From Terriglobia bacterium (GTDB taxonomy: Bacteria; Acidobacteriota; Terriglobia; Terriglobales; Acidobacteriaceae): 64,000 nt of DNA. The notes under the pieces are model-generated. The model ran no database searches. It saw nothing but the letters and a program-made list of their open reading frames with translations, and was not told the origin of the DNA. Each line of letters opens with the position of its first letter. The first letter of the stretch is position 1. Shown here one piece after another: positions 3,601 through 49,545 of this stretch. A program made the translations under genes and the position numbers. The DNA is taken from assembly GCA_020073165.1 (NCBI GenBank), contig JAIQFP010000007.1, forward strand, positions 124,001-188,000, written 5' to 3'.

Positions 3601-4081
3601 CAAAGTCCGTGAAACGCCGGTTGCTGATGGGCAGAGACTGGATTTGCTGGGTATCGATCACCTGGCTGATTTCCGTTCGCGTCGTCTCGATCGGCGGCGC
3701 TTCGGTGGTGACCGTCACGACTTCTCCTGTTGCTGCCACCTTGAGCGTGACATCGTTCGTCGCCGTTTGCCCCACCGACAGGACGATCCCGGTCTGCGTG
3801 TACTTGGCAAAGCCCGCAGACGATACCGTCAGTTCGTACCGCCCGGGCGGGAGAAGAGGGATGGCGTAGAAGCCCGTAACATTGGTCGTGGTCGTGTAGG
3901 TCTGGTTGGTGTCCACAGAGCGCAAGCTGACATCGGCCTTGACGATGGCCTTGCCCGATGGATCCAGAACCGTTCCGTTAAGCACCGCGTAGCTGATGGT
4001 AGCTTGCGCCAGGGACTGAACGCTGAGAAGAACAACCAGAAAGGAAACGCCAACGACGGTGAACAGCAGACGTAGTCTCAT
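674..4081 (-). CDS. Oar-like TonB-dependent outer-membrane receptor
   Basis: 1,135 residues. A signal peptide (about 1-26) is followed by a carboxypeptidase-regulatory-like beta-sandwich (about 30-120, containing DPSGKAIVKADVSL and GFYAIPLLPPGRYELTV). A plug domain (about 130-280) comes next, then a long beta-barrel ending in the C-terminal aromatic residue typical of outer-membrane proteins (KFSF). Such receptors are expanded in Acidobacteriota and import or bind large or aromatic substrates using the TonB system. A GGGAGG ribosome site precedes the ATG. The upstream region carries two copies of the palindrome also found at pcaH, so it is probably co-regulated with protocatechuate catabolism. 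Its substrate is unknown; an aromatic or lignin-derived compound is an inference from context. Confidence 0.9.
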   Translation of the reverse strand: MRLRLLFTVVGVSFLVVLLSVQSLAQATISYAVLNGTVLDPSGKAIVKADVSLRSVDTNQTYTTTTNVTGFYAIPLLPPGRYELTVSSAGFAKYTQTGIVLSVGQTATNDVTLKVAATGEVVTVTTEAPPIETTRTEISQVIDTQQIQSLPISNRRFTDFALLTPGVASSRTGFGSTFTEFEATQLSFGGMRSFSNIITVDGADFVNTVSGVQRSTPPQESVQEFRVVNNSFGSEYGRALGGIVNVVTKSGTNDLHGSIYDYLQNSAANSRSLLQPPGTAFALRQNQFGGTLGGPIVKDRTFFFMNYEGLRRAEAPTLPLDLLLNIQELNLAKANIGINVPENLGVLKTNDNDYGFARLDHQINNNNRFTVRYNVEDARDLNALVGQTEDGGGIGTPSAGRNLFIRDQSLVGTLNTVIRPNLVNTVLAQYARRHYNFLGATGQPDLSFGNDLEFGHNFGTYDGIFETREQFSDSIAWVKGKHVVKFGYDSNYIQDRVNYPGFTPARIIFPDLNCFIDFANFMALAGGGLDPLPGAPCPLPNGTIPGEPFVNLEGVAAIFYGVALSRNNYTDGQFPLNNQFPLDTATWSNAYPPQLSSSYDFKLNHGYQGFFFQDQWRVTPKLTFNYGLRWDFETGLGREIDSYYKSFQPRVGFAYSPDNKTVIRAGFGIFVDRVNLVFFFTPGNQKTVSGYLPGITLPMVQSEAAQGGWQLNLNVAPGFVPPGINCTNSIPGVTPCFSSAADLAASILTTGQYPLEFITDLCLTDGGLACYAGAGGVDRHISKPPYAEQASLQIEREIGKGLTLGAGYLMVQSHRLVQGNGINEACPVGTSKPDPNAQGLLNANGTLSNCNGTPGPLLFGKPYFPGNGLEFQNAGFLDYNNDVDNAIYHGLTIHAREKMGTYFTLDANYTFSHTIDSGNFTTFINLPQNQFDPAAERANSNQDVRHRFVLNFTAEGPKNSFLRNFALSSIINAQTGRPFTLFTGTGDSNGDSNPVTDRPSLVGRNTYYGDHLYSWDLRVSRYFQLGERKRLDIAFDAFNLLNRQNIDEVVSVYGGPEICGAVPTRFNDAATRAIQAGQVSCTAAPAPLPPAPPPPPADAPWLTGSAFVPPPNAFLGTPRAMLNPRQLQISLKFSF

Positions 4082-4101
4082 AAGCCTCCCTGCTCTCCGA
4101 G

Positions 4102-4115
4102 CGAACGTACGTTCT
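4102..4115. promoter_or_regulatory. Palindromic operator, copy 1 (CGAACGNNCGTTCG type)
   Basis: The site reads CGAACGTACGTTCT, a palindrome with one mismatch in the last base, 21-34 bp before the receptor start codon. It matches the second copy at 4239 and the pcaH copy at 15778. The form fits a TetR-type dimer operator. A GAAC-N4-GTTC SOS box is an alternative reading. Confidence 0.6.
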
Positions 4116-4238
4116 AGGGATCCGCAGATACCTCGAAAGACCTTTTGCCGACAAAACGGAGAACCATACCTTGACGCGAAAGTGGGTTCGCCCCCACGCA
4201 GAACCCATTGAAACTTCTCGGTACCGTTACGTCCTATC

Positions 4239-4252
4239 GAACGTCCGTTCGC
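4239..4252. promoter_or_regulatory. Palindromic operator, copy 2
   Basis: The site reads CGAACGTCCGTTCG, with perfect six-base arms around a two-base centre, about 160 bp before the TonB receptor start and between it and the MetE-like gene. Two spaced copies at one promoter region are typical of a repressor-controlled unit. Confidence 0.6.
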
Positions 4253-4354
4253 TTACGCTCTTAAGCCGCAGTATTTTGCACATCTCCAGCCCACTGTCAA
4301 GGACGAAATGCGCGACCCGACCTCGCGAAGGCATAACACCAGCGTCGAATTCCC

Positions 4355-5461
4355 CTAGGCGCTATGCGCCAGCGGCACCGACTTCCCCCAAACCTCATTG
4401 GCGGTTTCCGCCACCAGGCGCAGCTTGGCTTCCTGCTCGGCGGGAGTCAGAAGGTTTCCTTCCATGGTTGAAGCAAAACCGCACTGCGGACTCAGCGCCA
4501 GTCTGTCCAGCGGAATAAAAGCCGCAGCGGACGCGATTCGGGACTTCAGCTCATCCTTGCTCTCCAGCGTTGCCTTCTTCGAACTGACCAGCCCCAGCAC
4601 TACGGTCCGGCCTTCCGGCATCTGGCGCAACGGTTCAAAGCCGCCGGAGCGCTCGTCGTCGTACTCGAGCAGGAAGCGCTGAAAGTGGGTATTGCGAAAC
4701 ACCTTGGTGATCGGGCCGTAGTCCCCGGCAGCGTAAAACTTGCTTTGATTGTTTCCCCGGCACAGGTGCAGCCCGAAGCTAATTCCGGGATGATTTCCGA
4801 TCACCGCGTTGTCCATCTCGATCGACAGGTCGAGCAAGCGATCGGGATCATTGCCACGCTGCCGGTAGCCTTCGCGCAATTGCGGATCGAGCAACGCGGT
4901 GTATTGCGGGGAATCGATCTGAATGTAGGTGCAGCCGAGGCGGATCAACTCCTCGACTTCGTCCCGCAGGATGTCCACCAGGTCCGCGAGGTACGCGCTC
5001 ATCGAGGGGTAGGCCCCCGCCGACTTCTTGCTGTCGTAGTAGGCGGCCGCCTGCTGTGCGCTGATCATTGTGGTTTTTGCTGGACGCTGAGTGCGCGCGC
5101 GCAAATAGGTGAATTCTTCCGCGCACAGCGGGCGCTTGCGCCGCAGCTTCGAAACCACGACCGGGCGTGGCAGAACCAACTCCTCGCCCTTTTCGTTGCG
5201 GAAAGGAATGGCCCAGCCGCCGAACTTGTCGAATCCTTCCACCGCGTCGATGAGGTGCCCGAAGAATGCATAGCGGCGCATCTCGCCGTCGGTGACCACA
5301 TTCACGCCGGCACGCGTCTGCAACTCAACGGCTTCGTCCACGGCTCGATCTTCGGCCCGCTTGAACTCCACTGCGGAAAGTTTTCCCGCCTCGTAACTCT
5401 CGCGAGCATCCTTCAGGTACGCTGGACGCAAGAGACTGCCAACCACATCGCTGCGATACAT
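4355..5461 (-). CDS. MetE-like cobalamin-independent methyltransferase (C-terminal barrel only)
   Basis: 368 residues, half the length of full MetE, corresponding to its catalytic C-terminal TIM barrel. All zinc ligands of the family can be placed: His232 and Cys234 in GLHLCRGN, Glu266 in FLLEYDDE, and Cys327 in LSPQCGF. The enzyme should therefore bind Zn and activate a thiol for methyl or alkyl transfer. The substrate is unknown; stand-alone barrels of this type include the epoxyalkane:coenzyme M transferases as well as methionine synthases. The start at 5461 has a strong GGAAGGAG ribosome site; an upstream in-frame ATG has none. It is divergent from a second MetE-like gene at 5731, and the two flank an intergenic region of about 270 bp. 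Confidence 0.85.
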   Translation of the reverse strand: MYRSDVVGSLLRPAYLKDARESYEAGKLSAVEFKRAEDRAVDEAVELQTRAGVNVVTDGEMRRYAFFGHLIDAVEGFDKFGGWAIPFRNEKGEELVLPRPVVVSKLRRKRPLCAEEFTYLRARTQRPAKTTMISAQQAAAYYDSKKSAGAYPSMSAYLADLVDILRDEVEELIRLGCTYIQIDSPQYTALLDPQLREGYRQRGNDPDRLLDLSIEMDNAVIGNHPGISFGLHLCRGNNQSKFYAAGDYGPITKVFRNTHFQRFLLEYDDERSGGFEPLRQMPEGRTVVLGLVSSKKATLESKDELKSRIASAAAFIPLDRLALSPQCGFASTMEGNLLTPAEQEAKLRLVAETANEVWGKSVPLAHSA

Positions 5462-45703: not shown

Positions 45704-46324
45704 CTAATACTTCCTCAGCACCCCAATCACCCGCCCCTGAACCTCCACCGCCGACGCCGGCTTGATGATGGGTTGCATGTTCGCATTCGACGGCTGCAGG
45801 CGAATGTTGTCGCCGTCGCGATAGAAGCGCTTGAGCGTGGCATCACTTCCCTGCACCAGCGCCACCACAATGTCGCCGTTGTGCGCCGTCCTGCTCTTCT
45901 CCACCAGCACGTAATCGCCGTCGAGAATGGCTTCGTCCTGCATGGAATCGCCACGCACCTCGAGCACGAACACTTCTTTCGAGCGCACGAAATCCGCCAG
46001 CGAAATCGTCTCCGGATTCTCCACTGCCTCAATCGGCTGGCCCGCGGCAATGCGTCCCAACAATGGCAAGACCATCCCCGTGTTCACCGACATGGCCTGC
46101 TTCAGGCGTCCTTTGGGGGGCAGCAGGTCAATGGAGCGGCTGCGGTTGTAGTCACGGGTGAGCAGCCCCTTTTTCTCCAGGTTGGAGACGTGTTTGTGCA
46201 CCGTGGCCAGCGAACTCAGGCCCAGGCCTTCGGCAATTTCCTCGAAGGATGGGGAATAACCCTTCTCCGCCACGAAGCGCGAAATGAAGTCATACAACTC
46301 CCGCTGACGCCGGGTGATAGCCAT
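45704..46324 (-). CDS. lexA: LexA SOS repressor / autoprotease
   Basis: 206 residues. The N-terminal winged helix (SFEEIAEGLGLSSLATVHKH) binds DNA. Self-cleavage would occur between Ala94 and Gly95 in RIAAGQ, with catalytic Ser127 (RGDSMQ) and Lys165 (ATLKRF). RecA-stimulated cleavage derepresses DNA-repair genes. A direct repeat TTCGCT-N5-TTCGCT lies 13-29 bp upstream and may be its own operator. A probable nuclease gene follows on the same transcript. Confidence 0.95.
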   Translation of the reverse strand: MAITRRQRELYDFISRFVAEKGYSPSFEEIAEGLGLSSLATVHKHVSNLEKKGLLTRDYNRSRSIDLLPPKGRLKQAMSVNTGMVLPLLGRIAAGQPIEAVENPETISLADFVRSKEVFVLEVRGDSMQDEAILDGDYVLVEKSRTAHNGDIVVALVQGSDATLKRFYRDGDNIRLQPSNANMQPIIKPASAVEVQGRVIGVLRKY

Positions 46325-46458: not shown

Positions 46459-46612
46459 GCGGCGGCAAGACTTTGCGCGCACGAACCGTGAAATGACCAG
46501 TCAGCACCGGTTTTCGCCCGAATCTTTTTACTTAGTCTTAACATTTTCCCTCTTGCGAAAAACTCCAACTCATGTCATCTTCAGACATCTTCTCAAGAAA
46601 GGACGCCCGTTT

Positions 46613-46702
46613 ATGAAAAGCACAATTCTCCCCGTGCCGCGGACGCAAGGACCGGTAGACGGTCGACTGCGTTTCCGGGCGTCATCCGATCGCGCTAACT
46701 AA
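46613..46702 (+). CDS. Possible 29-residue peptide before the Y RNA
   Basis: ATG follows a GAAAGGA-type ribosome site, and the reading frame ends at TAA at 46700. The peptide is basic (MKSTILPVPR...). Strikingly, after this TAA the same frame stays open for 75 more codons to a TGA at 46928, across the Y RNA region. I do not know whether the peptide is made. It may be a leader peptide or noise. Confidence 0.35.
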   Translation: MKSTILPVPRTQGPVDGRLRFRASSDRAN

Positions 46703-46820
46703 GCCTCGGCGCTCCGAAACGCAGATTCAACCACAACTTCGCTGGGTGGCGTAGACCGCAGCTACTTCGACTGCTACTCGACCATGCTGCTGTCGCTTGT
46801 TCCCCCAGCACTAAACATCA

Positions 46821-46929
46821 CAGGGTCAGTGGCGATTGGCCACGGATACTTCTTAGGCGAAACAGCCTTCGGGCTGGGAGGTTCGAATCCTCATGGGCGC
46901 AAGCCCTTTCCGTGTCCGCATGTACCCTG
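46821..46929 (+). ncRNA. Candidate bacterial Y RNA (YrlA-type) with tRNA-like module
   Basis: The folded elements seen are as follows. The outer stem is CAGGGT (46821-46826) with ACCCTG (46924-46929). A hairpin GTGGC-gattg-GCCAC spans 46829-46843. An acceptor-like stem pairs CGGATAC (46843-46849) with GTGTCCG (46912-46918). The anticodon-arm position has CAGCC-TTCG-GGCTG (46863-46876). The T arm GAGG-TTCGAAT-CCTC (46878-46892) carries the canonical T loop. An extra hairpin is GGGC-GCAA-GCCC (46895-46906). Known bacterial Y RNAs pair the RNA ends for Ro60 binding and mimic tRNA in the rest. The gene lies on the same strand as, and 1.3 kb before, the Ro60 gene rsr, which strongly supports the call. 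The exact ends are approximate. Confidence 0.75.
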
Positions 46930-47011
46930 ACCAGAAAGTTCATTGGAGACACAGGCGCCCGTGGCAACGTGCGCCCACAACCGGGCAGATGCCCTTAGAT
47001 CGGAACCACGT

Positions 47012-47809
47012 ATGGATGTCTTGGAACGCGCATTCATGAAGATGGGCGCGCGGGTTAAGTTCGGCGCAGCGGCGCCGCGCTGGCTCGGAGGCCGGCGTGT
47101 GCTTACTGATCTTGCGCTGGACGTCCGTCGGGACCAGTGGGGAGAGTACTTTCTCATTTCACGCAATCCCGGCTCCGCGCCCGACTTGGTTGTACTTGAC
47201 GTTCAGCCCAAGGATCGCCATCTGGTGCTGATGAGCCGCGCGGGGCAGGAGAAGCATCGCTACCTGCTCGGTCATGACGAGCGCCACTGGTTTGTCGCCG
47301 GCATTCCCGAATCCACGCCGGTCAGTCGGGTCAGAGATGCCAAGCAAGCCCTGAAGCCCGAAGCGGTGCAGATCAGGGAGCGGGGTCTGCGTTCGAAGGA
47401 CTGCGAGCGCCGGAGCAATGCTGCTCGCATTCGCCAAGGCGAGTGGTTCTTCGTCGCTGCTCCGCAAGCGTCTGTGCCGGCGTGGAAGGTCCTGCGCAAC
47501 GAACCGCTGGTTCGTAGCCGGGGAGGGAAACCCCATATGTGCCAGGAACTCTTCCGGTTCGGCGGGGAAACAGTGTACGTCAGTCCAGGCGCTCCGAACG
47601 GTTTAACCGAGGTCGAGTACGCAGCGCTCTCGGACCAAGCGCTGCGGCGCTGGAACTGGCGCGTGATGACGCGCAATCCCACTGTCTACGCGCGGGGAAC
47701 GGTACGCCATCCCGATCACAAGACTGTGGTATTGGATGGGTGGCACGAGGTCCTGAGCAACACCGAACACTTGTCCTACGCCATGCGTGACATCGTGTTC
47801 TTGGACTAA
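47012..47809 (+). CDS. Rsr-linked conserved hypothetical protein
   Basis: 265 residues from an ATG 82 bp after the Y RNA. No domain is recognised with certainty. The protein mixes beta-strand segments (LVVLDVQPKDRHLVLMSR, HWFVAGIPE, GEWFFVAAP) and ends with RHPDHKTVVLDGWHEVL and YAMRDIVFLD. No signal peptide or membrane segment is seen. Its position between the Y RNA and rsr suggests a role in Ro60 RNP function, but that is inferred from location only. I have an impression of similar proteins beside TROVE genes, unverified. Confidence 0.65.
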   Translation: MDVLERAFMKMGARVKFGAAAPRWLGGRRVLTDLALDVRRDQWGEYFLISRNPGSAPDLVVLDVQPKDRHLVLMSRAGQEKHRYLLGHDERHWFVAGIPESTPVSRVRDAKQALKPEAVQIRERGLRSKDCERRSNAARIRQGEWFFVAAPQASVPAWKVLRNEPLVRSRGGKPHMCQELFRFGGETVYVSPGAPNGLTEVEYAALSDQALRRWNWRVMTRNPTVYARGTVRHPDHKTVVLDGWHEVLSNTEHLSYAMRDIVFLD

Positions 47810-47877
47810 CGATGACTTCACTTGTCCCTGGCTCAGGCCAGCCACTACGGCCACGCGCCGGTTAGAAAGTGCTTGTT

Positions 47878-48114
47878 ATGGATAACAATCAGATAGCCGA
47901 TGAGGGTGTACATCGCGACCTCCAATACGGCGCCAACGGCCATACCGCCGTGTTCTGCACCTTCGGCGGCGGGGTGCGTCCCGTCCAGATCGATGTGATG
48001 TACTGCACCGACTACCGTGACCGGAGCACGCCTCTTCGCCTGGTGCGCATTGGTTTCGTAGGGAAACACGCGGCTCTCGAGCCCGTCGCGGAAGTCGCAA
48101 CCGCGGAGCGCTGA
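47878..48114 (+). CDS. Small hypothetical protein in the Ro60 module
   Basis: 78 residues, about 70 bp after the preceding gene and about 125 bp before rsr. It starts MDNNQIADEGVHRDL and contains the beta-like stretch TAVFCTFGGGVRPVQIDVMY. No recognised domain and no strong ribosome site. Whether it is a real protein is uncertain, but the reading frame, spacing and same-strand position favour it. Confidence 0.5.
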   Translation: MDNNQIADEGVHRDLQYGANGHTAVFCTFGGGVRPVQIDVMYCTDYRDRSTPLRLVRIGFVGKHAALEPVAEVATAER

Positions 48115-48240
48115 CGTGCTCCGCGAGTTGTTTTTCCTACTTCGCCGGGGGACCGAGCATCGGAACAATACCGTCGTCGCCCGATTCCCCGGCAATATTT
48201 TGAATGCCAGCAGCTGGTAGCCAGCAGCAAGGAGCAGACT

Positions 48241-49545
48241 ATGTCTCGACTCAACACACTCAGCCTCGGCCCCCGCACCCACGAGGGTGCCCCTGCCCGC
48301 CACCTCTCGCCTGAGCTCCAGCTCCGGCGCTCGGTGCTCGCCTGCCTGCTCTGGGAGAGCCAGTTCTACGAGGACGGTGTCGAAATCTCCGGCCGCATCG
48401 CGGAACTCGTCCCCAAGGTCGCACCCGAGAAGGTCGCGGCTCTGGCCGTCGAGGCCCGCCAACAGATGAACCTGCGGCACGCGCCGCTGCTGCTGGTCCG
48501 CGAAATGGCTCGTCATGCGACCCATCGCCGTCTGGTGGCCGACACGCTCGCCACCGTCATCCAGCGTGCCGACGAGCTCGCCGAGTTCGTCGCCATCTAT
48601 TGGAAGGACGGGCGTGTCCCGCTCTCCGGCCAGGTCAAGAAGGGGCTGGCCGCGGCGTTCCCCAAATTCGACGAGTATCAGCTGGCGAAGTACGATCGCG
48701 GCGGGCCGATCAAGCTGCGCGACGTACTCTTTCTCTGCCACGCCAAGCCGCGGGATGCGGCCCAGGCCGGCGTGTGGAAGAAGCTGATCTGGGGTCGCAT
48801 GGCCACGCCCGACACCTGGGAGGTCGCACTCTCCTCGGGCGCCGACAAGCGCGAAGCCTGGCAGCGTCTGCTCGCCGAGAACAAGCTGGGAGCGCTGGCC
48901 CTGCTCCGCAACCTGCGCAACATGAAAGAAGCAGGGGTGGAGGAAGATCTAGTGCTCTCAGCCCTGCGCTCCATGAAGACGCAGCGCGTGCTCCCGTTCC
49001 GTTTTCTTGCTGCGGCCCGTTACGCGCCCCAGTGGGAGGAAGCGCTCGAGCACGCCATGCTGGCTTGCGTCGCCAGCCAGGAGAAGCTCCCCGGCAAGAC
49101 CATCGTGCTGGTAGATGTTTCCGGCTCGATGACCGCGCCGCTCTCCCGCCGGTCCGAGATGCAGCGCACCGACGCGGCTTATGGTCTAGCCGTATTGCTG
49201 CGTGAGATCGGCGAGAAGGTTGCGGTGTTTTCCTTCTCGAACGCTCTGGCCGAGGTGCCAGCGCGGCGCGGCTTTGCCCTGCGCGACGCCATCGATGCCT
49301 CTCAGCCGCATGGCGCTACGTATCTCGGCAAGGCGGTCGAGGAGCTGAACCAGAACGAACCCTGCGATCGCCTGATCGTTATCACCGACGAGCAGGCCCA
49401 TGACACCGTGCCCGCGCCGTGCGGCAAGGGCTACGTGCTCAACGTAGCCAGCTACAAGAACGGAGTCGGCTACGGCAAGTGGACCCACATCGACGGCTGG
49501 AGCGAGTCGGTGGTCGATTACATCCGCATGCTGGAGACCACCTAG
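48241..49545 (+). CDS. rsr: Rsr, bacterial Ro60-type TROVE domain RNA-binding protein
   Basis: 434 residues. The N-terminal TROVE segment is helical repeats (about 30-280). The C-terminal von Willebrand A domain carries the MIDAS motif VLVDVSGSM. Ro60 proteins form a ring that holds misfolded RNA ends and Y RNAs and works with exoribonucleases such as PNPase. The start has an AAGGAG ribosome site. With the tRNA-like RNA upstream this gives a complete Ro60-Y RNA module. RtcA, RtcB and RtcR are not seen in the window. Confidence 0.93.
   Translation: MSRLNTLSLGPRTHEGAPARHLSPELQLRRSVLACLLWESQFYEDGVEISGRIAELVPKVAPEKVAALAVEARQQMNLRHAPLLLVREMARHATHRRLVADTLATVIQRADELAEFVAIYWKDGRVPLSGQVKKGLAAAFPKFDEYQLAKYDRGGPIKLRDVLFLCHAKPRDAAQAGVWKKLIWGRMATPDTWEVALSSGADKREAWQRLLAENKLGALALLRNLRNMKEAGVEEDLVLSALRSMKTQRVLPFRFLAAARYAPQWEEALEHAMLACVASQEKLPGKTIVLVDVSGSMTAPLSRRSEMQRTDAAYGLAVLLREIGEKVAVFSFSNALAEVPARRGFALRDAIDASQPHGATYLGKAVEELNQNEPCDRLIVITDEQAHDTVPAPCGKGYVLNVASYKNGVGYGKWTHIDGWSESVVDYIRMLETT

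Follow-up and report, generated by a model that had tools for sequence, protein, structure and literature searches.

A predicted bacterial Y RNA with tRNA-like arms in unpermuted order, in an array upstream of the Ro60 gene rsr of an acidobacterium

The window, 64,000 nucleotides of DNA from a soil acidobacterium, very probably encodes a bacterial Y RNA at 46824-46932 on the plus strand, upstream of rsr, the gene for the Ro60 orthologue. The candidate RNA has a conserved structure, shares a core with neighbouring RNAs, is linked to rsr and is absent where rsr is absent. An earlier note on this DNA had proposed a Y RNA with a tRNA-like module upstream of rsr, and the covariation, the shared core and the linkage to rsr support this; it had missed that the RNA belongs to an array, with a neighbour at 46741-46809, and that its arm order is unlike that of YrlA. 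The best reading of the sequences is a Y RNA of a new architectural variant. Its transcription, its binding to Rsr, its partner and its function are what we infer from them.

The candidate RNA is 109 nt long and obtains 109.8 bits with the covariance model R1, whose training set includes the window. It consists of a basal stem, a second stem, a D-like arm, an UUCG arm, a T-arm and a GCAA hairpin. The 5' strand of the putative Rsr-binding stem (46824-46845) is formed by GGUCAG, a bulged U, GG, an internal loop and GGCCACGG, and the 3' strand (46910-46932), placed by alignment A1, covariation and the closing-stem count, reads CCGUGUCC...CC-CUGACC. The basal stem is then GGUCAG-(U)-GG/CC-CUGACC, while the acceptor-like stem is 46838-46845/46910-46917. 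Inside it lies a D-arm-like hairpin (46850-46861, UUC-UUAGGC-GAA, helix 3) with GG in the loop, which the earlier note did not describe; it is present in the minimum-energy fold of 46825-46933 and paired in 93.6% of the alignment cells. The UUCG-capped arm at the position of the anticodon arm (46863-46876, helices 4-5) differs in length among relatives. The T-arm (46878-46892, GAGG-UUCGAAU-CCUC, helix 6) is paired in 100% of cells, with one pair changed from A-U to G-C in four sequences. On its 3' side is a short GCAA-capped hairpin (46895-46906, helix 7), possibly an acceptor stub, with 93.3% of cells paired and no two-sided changes; it is missing from loci L064 and L062. The UUCG hairpin, T-arm, GCAA-capped arm and acceptor-like stem claimed earlier are thus all present in the sequence, within 46838-46917.

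The closing stem GGUCAG/CUGACC (46824-46829/46927-46932) has six of six pairs in 14 out of 14 sequences. The stem CAGGGU/ACCCUG, implied by the span 46821-46929 given in the earlier note, is complete only in the window and has 2-5 of its six pairs in the 13 relatives (five in four of them, fewer in nine). Therefore we place the element at 46824-46932, as does the calibrated R1 model. The minimum-energy fold of 46821-46934 alone closes with CAGGGU/ACCCUG, and because four relatives also keep five of its six pairs, this alternative closing stem may form in the window RNA. The folding energy of 46821-46934 departs only mildly from expectation (z -2.37; 3 of 200 shuffles are equally low), and that of 46825-46933 has a z of -1.67 (12 of 200 shuffles as low). 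Single-sequence folding energy is insufficient to carry the claim of a structured RNA; the comparative evidence is strong. On the opposite strand R1 gives 16.9 bits (E 0.096), due to the inverted repeats in the candidate RNA.

Covariation was measured on alignment A1, which holds 14 sequences of the candidate's class, with a structure of 34 pairs. In these homologues 92.3% of the cells are paired, and pairing falls to 40-55% when the pair partners are slid along the alignment. Two-sided changes occur in nine of the 34 pairs and in 19 cells, and each of these levels was reached by 0 of 500 shuffles, which ignore the relatedness of the 14 sequences. Of the five measures, the number of further pair types does not stand out: 104 of 500 shuffles reach the same level. 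Helix 1 is paired in 100% of cells and has two pairs with changes on both sides. The weakest are helix 2 (84.9%) and helix 4 of the UUCG arm (82.1%, partly misaligned). The candidate is a conserved structured RNA with clear covariation, and the compensatory changes that the earlier note had proposed to look for are present, both here and in the second stem across a larger set of elements described below.

The candidate shares a core with a 69-nt neighbour: X5-UGG[CU]GNAG, the second stem, NUNCUUC, the module and UUCC-X5', in full X5-UGGYGNAG...GGNUNCUUC...UUCC-X5'. It departs from this core by GAU for NAG and UACC for UUCC. The neighbour (46741-46809, plus strand) is a second Y RNA of the array with the same core, and it lacks the tRNA-like module. 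It is matched by our finder (the core pattern plus the closing stem), its region 46740-46810 folds with a z of -2.93, and nhmmer profile B detects homologues in the same order in relatives. Upstream of both RNAs is a conserved leader block (46545-46734, plus strand), found in the same position in relatives by nhmmer profile A and aligned in A2. The leader block may contain a promoter: a promoter-like TTGCGA-N17-CATCTT at 46553-46581 is conserved, though picked by eye only, and a promoter scan listed a single site, which is on the minus strand, with no sense-strand site ahead of the array. Read together, the conserved block aligns as leader, 69-nt element and candidate RNA. By blastn several loci have this block, 46541-46937, complete or partial, ahead of rsr at variable distance, and most of the DNA between it and rsr is unmatched among loci (blastn, and tblastn of the ORFs). 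Just before rsr there is a remnant of a third Y RNA, of YrlA order (48144-48193, plus strand), in which the closing stem and the 3' part are kept and the 5' core and T-arm are gone; 48143-48200 folds as a hairpin with a z of -3.07. The 39 bases at 48155-48193 share 92% identity with the 3' part of the array member that stands last in L004, and they also resemble sequence in L008, L005, L002, L006 and L061. Apart from the candidate, no intact Y RNA carrying a tRNA-like module was found in the window genome.

The gene rsr itself (48241-49545, plus strand) encodes 434 aa with a TROVE domain (PF05731, E 6.6e-18) and a VWA_2 domain (E 2.6e-06), and matches the solved TROVE-domain proteins 9l5y and 9kop (E 1.4e-33). 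The earlier note placed the candidate before rsr; it is upstream and on the same strand, but 1.3 kb away, with two ORFs (46943-47809 and 47869-48114) between. The first of these encodes 288 aa and has no Pfam match up to E 0.1, and its start may be the ATG at 47013, judged by eye. Among the rsr loci compared, a homologue (71%) is found only in L009, amid the array members there. A lexA gene (45704-46324, opposite strand) adjoins the array in the window and in L004, L008, L014 and L062, and in L028 and L030 the gene neighbours rsr remnants. A connection with DNA damage may exist. 

The comparison across loci drew its rsr relatives from two sources, 29 loci on named genome contigs and 150 genomes of the order. 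The finder sets no pairing condition on the second stem. In its strict form it gave 139 matches in 988,619 bases of loci, a set that includes three duplicate loci, and none in mononucleotide-shuffled sequence. A looser form found 174 elements in 55 of 62 loci, all in sense, upstream of rsr and within 4.4 kb of it, and none on the other strand or downstream of rsr in 1,218,888 control bases. Left out of the 62 loci are the duplicates L060, L063 and L069 (of L002, L010 and L020) and L095, whose rsr fragment falls below the tblastn limit. Longer stretches took the place of the short loci L001 and L031-L059; the exception is L040 (genome G125), which lies at a contig end and was omitted. The seven loci free of elements comprise five with rsr remnants only and two with just 0.4-1.0 kb of upstream DNA. 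Counting only the 45 acidobacterial loci with at least one element and over 4.5 kb of upstream DNA, the number of elements per locus ranges from one to six and is two to five in 43. The finder counts are lower bounds, since some genuine members escape it; one is the L002 RNA without a module, which the nhmmer profiles do show. In the second stem, 82 of the 174 elements have eight of eight pairs and 65 have seven, and with partners swapped between loci the shares are 3% and 21%.

The arrays also contain a long class without T-arm, about 150-190 nt, to which 25 of the 174 elements belong by rule (for example L009:3218-3405; also in L007, L004 and L075). These RNAs have an inner structure of their own that looks conserved, and the long element had no Rfam match in L009 3180-3680 at E up to 1. 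In L020 (Granulicella aggregans) the Y RNA array is preceded, at a distance of about 0.5 kb, by six consecutive tRNA genes on the minus strand (3755-4415).

Linkage to rsr was also followed genome by genome. An rsr match is present in 38 of the 150 genomes of the order, as fragments only in three (G121, G137, G145) and in two pieces in two (G078, G118). R1, run with stricter filters and 25 candidates scored per genome, matches 25 of these 38 genomes and none of the 112 others; six of the 25 had supplied sequences for R1 itself, and the matches include array members of other classes. All 35 matches share a contig with rsr and stand no more than about 5 kb from it. Of the 13 genomes with an rsr match that R1 does not find, three have rsr fragments only. 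Adjacency to rsr in related genomes, on which the earlier note had staked its proposal, was therefore found both in this search (25/38 vs 0/112) and by the finder (55/62 loci). The core pattern alone matched 39 of the 150 genomes, 34 with rsr and five without, and its backward control four. By eye, three of the five rsr-less matches (L097, L098, L099) are broken-looking Y cores and two (L096, L103) look unrelated; the finder gave no element in any of the five. The broken-looking Y cores in rsr-less genomes, together with the five rsr-remnant loci that have no elements, suggest that rsr and the Y RNAs are lost together.

Among 297 genomes of the phylum the core pattern matched 15 (backward control 3 of 297), eight of them from the window family. 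The seven in more distant genomes were judged from their letters to be chance, and in two of these, L105 and L106, the finder gave no element.

The linkage is not absolute: besides the five rsr-less genomes that the core pattern matched, two rsr-bearing genomes have intact Y-like RNAs away from rsr. These are module-less Y-type RNAs (L100:1325-1391 and L101:3010-3077), each between two tRNA-Gln genes inside a tRNA cluster, with 22 and 13 tRNA genes in the stretches examined. A further copy, at G118:C29:13698-13773, is seen as a 93% match only.

Vertebrate Y RNAs are not known to have a tRNA-like module. They resemble the candidate in their paired ends and in the single bulged base of the Ro60 site, as described in passages of PMC4726728, which also call the bacterial Y RNAs non-homologous to them, and they have no Rfam match in the window. 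YrlA (RF02553; Salmonella, PDB 6CU1 according to passages of PMC11472068 and PMC8394870) has, like the candidate, a basal stem and a tRNA-like module and lies near rsr. Both RNAs have a T-arm with a UUCGANU-type loop and a D-arm with GG. YrlA is a circularly permuted tRNA according to passages of PMC11472068, whereas the candidate is unpermuted and has no RF02553 match. In the Y RNA of Deinococcus radiodurans (RYPER complex) the stem binds Rsr and hairpins, including a T-arm-like one, bind PNPase according to passages of PMC6181284; for the candidate, comparable binding is predicted. The candidate and tRNA (RF00005) have T-arm, D-like arm and anticodon-position hairpin in common and arrange them alike; the candidate differs by a 3-bp D stem, a 1-nt variable region and an extra hairpin before the 3' strand. 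Proximity to rsr, a bulged basal stem, a tRNA-like domain and a length of 109 nt, inside the range of about 90-150 nt for Y RNAs given in passages of PMC8394870, are all found in the candidate.

At gathering scores Rfam finds only Acido-Lenti-1 in the whole window (RF01687, 41934-41979, minus strand, 51.6 bits) and nothing at the candidate RNA. The earlier note had suggested a check with covariance models of Y RNA or tRNA; over 46500-48300 there is no Rfam YrlA or tRNA match. At E up to 10 this region gives two chance-level matches, of which WT1-AS_2 overlaps the candidate (E 2, 16.9 of the 45 bits required). RF02553 has no match in the window, and none in the window genome at E up to 0.001.

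A 2014 survey by Chen reportedly found Y RNAs close to Ro60 genes in over 250 species of bacteria and phages, with at least one per species carrying a tRNA-like domain, and an acidobacterial Y RNA with several per locus would fit this known kind. Our literature search found nothing on acidobacterial Y RNA with Ro60; it did not reach that survey. Likewise the literature searched holds no description of an unpermuted or D-arm-opened Y RNA, which is weak evidence of novelty as the specialist papers were outside its reach.

By rule, the 168 acidobacterial elements divide into 79 without a T-arm, 46 with T-arm, acceptor hairpin and D-arm in the circularly permuted tRNA order of YrlA, 40 with a hairpin before the T-arm, and three others. 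The candidate is in the hairpin-before-T-arm group, and its D-like arm, hairpin and T-arm follow each other as in an ordinary tRNA. These rules are regular expressions and they differ, giving 23 elements of the candidate class against 40 hairpin-then-T elements of all kinds, and some members are misfiled, such as L144, which looks YrlA-like. RF02553 aligns on L009 3563-3619 with its T-arm, acceptor and D-arm (40.8 bits), and matches array members in three of four searched genomes with 37.8-54.1 bits, below the 69-bit cut-off. Because seven of 14 control genomes likewise give matches below the cut-off, the score by itself is weak, and the likeness to YrlA rests on place and arm order.

Among the hairpin-before-T members near rsr, GAGC before the T-arm goes with AGCU after the acceptor hairpin in 10 of 13, and members with GAAG or GAAC have AGCU in none of six (p 0.003), in counts that ignore relatedness and whose last cell includes two elements of the candidate class (10, 3, 0 and 4 without them). 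This co-occurrence points to two ways of making the D stem, across the Y stem or locally, the latter with the core UACUUC; the candidate RNA has the local form. 

A shared Ro60-docking stem with differently arranged tRNA imitations suggests that bacteria built tRNA mimics in more than one way. More tentatively, and with slightly less than even confidence, we read the acidobacterial Ro60 loci as a kit of up to six Y RNAs, in which a common Rsr-binding stem would be plugged into a tRNA opened at different points, so that each opening would show a tRNA face of its own to a partner of its own. The openings would then be at the anticodon arm (YrlA order), at the D-arm (D stem of GAGC and GCUC from opposite ends) and at the junction of acceptor and D-arm (window RNA), where the core UACUUC would double as the 5' strand of the D-arm; we hold these details with the same reserve. 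If the kit reading is true, the unpermuted or D-opened forms would be a new architecture of tRNA mimicry. That Y RNAs of bacteria mimic tRNA is already known. The loci combine one docking stem with tRNA-like modules in at least two orders, often at the same locus, besides module-less forms and long non-tRNA forms, and such natural variants could be used to test which tRNA face recruits which partner. The core motif can moreover be used to find Ro60-linked RNAs that Rfam at its cut-offs does not name.

In Deinococcus, passages of PMC6181284, PMC8394870 and PMC4726728 describe a Y stem that binds Rsr and a T-arm-like hairpin that binds PNPase, forming an RNA-degrading complex. The Salmonella operon responds to DNA damage and tRNA fragments, according to passages of PMC7790460. 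The ends of the candidate RNA pair into the bulged basal stem, and Rsr would bind this stem. The Y stem stands in the place of the acceptor stem, with the GCAA hairpin as a possible closed acceptor stub. The RNA would act in trans as a scaffold for Rsr, its T-arm/D-arm face recruiting a partner that recognises tRNA, most likely PNPase as in the Deinococcus RYPER, and structured or damaged RNA passing Rsr would be degraded or refolded. The neighbour at 46741-46809, lacking the module, would take up Rsr but bring in no such partner. The window genome has a gene for PNPase, and we give PNPase an even chance of being the partner of the tRNA-like module.

A Y RNA that does not tether PNPase is a possible though lesser alternative. 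Its tRNA face would serve as decoy or recruiter; the targets would be enzymes that modify tRNA, or anticodon nucleases and repair enzymes at work after DNA damage. YrlA is modified by DusA and TruB in passages of PMC8394870, and those of PMC7790460 propose a decoy role for YrlA. The arrays offer several different tRNA faces, which a single partner would not need, and lexA adjoins the array. On the other hand, PNPase tethering is the mechanism with biochemical support in the passages of PMC4726728 and PMC6181284.

We consider it improbable that the elements are cis-acting, that is, parts of the 5' leader of the transcript running to rsr, serving in RNA processing or as regulatory elements that Rsr binds for autoregulation, rather than free Y RNAs. 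That all 174 finder elements are upstream of and in sense with rsr would agree with this, in a search region made up of rsr loci, as would the conserved leader block that precedes the elements in relatives. However, the DNA from array to rsr differs among loci and its length varies, the distance from element to rsr being 23 to 4,258 nt; intact single elements sit in tRNA clusters away from rsr; and known Y RNAs are separate RNAs in the literature. A decayed tRNA gene or mobile-element attachment site, near rsr by chance, would explain the canonical UUCGAAU T-loop, the paired stem and the varying DNA around the array, but it is highly improbable, being contradicted by the compensatory changes kept in 14 homologues and the second-stem pairing in 174 elements, while ARAGORN finds no tRNA in the window, Rfam finds no tRNA in 46500-48300 at E up to 10, and the module-less neighbour has the core without any T-arm.

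Relatives of rsr are common in viral contigs, with 51-65% identity among the best 80 of 199. In these best 80 of 199 viral rsr loci the finder gave 113 elements in 49 loci, with 14 control-side matches, so the viral control is not clean. The 105 distinct elements from the same loci include 63 without a T-arm, 29 in YrlA order and six with hairpin then T-arm, at least one of these six being doubtful. The six suggest that the candidate's arm order probably extends beyond the phylum and looks rarer in the viral set. A blastn search of 46730-46940 against 50,697 phage records gave no match. At the protein level, Rsr relatives are present in 89 phage records (best 59.3%) and in 23 bacterial and archaeal plasmid records, 22 of them at 26-33% and the other, from Deinococcus gobiensis, at 57.6%.
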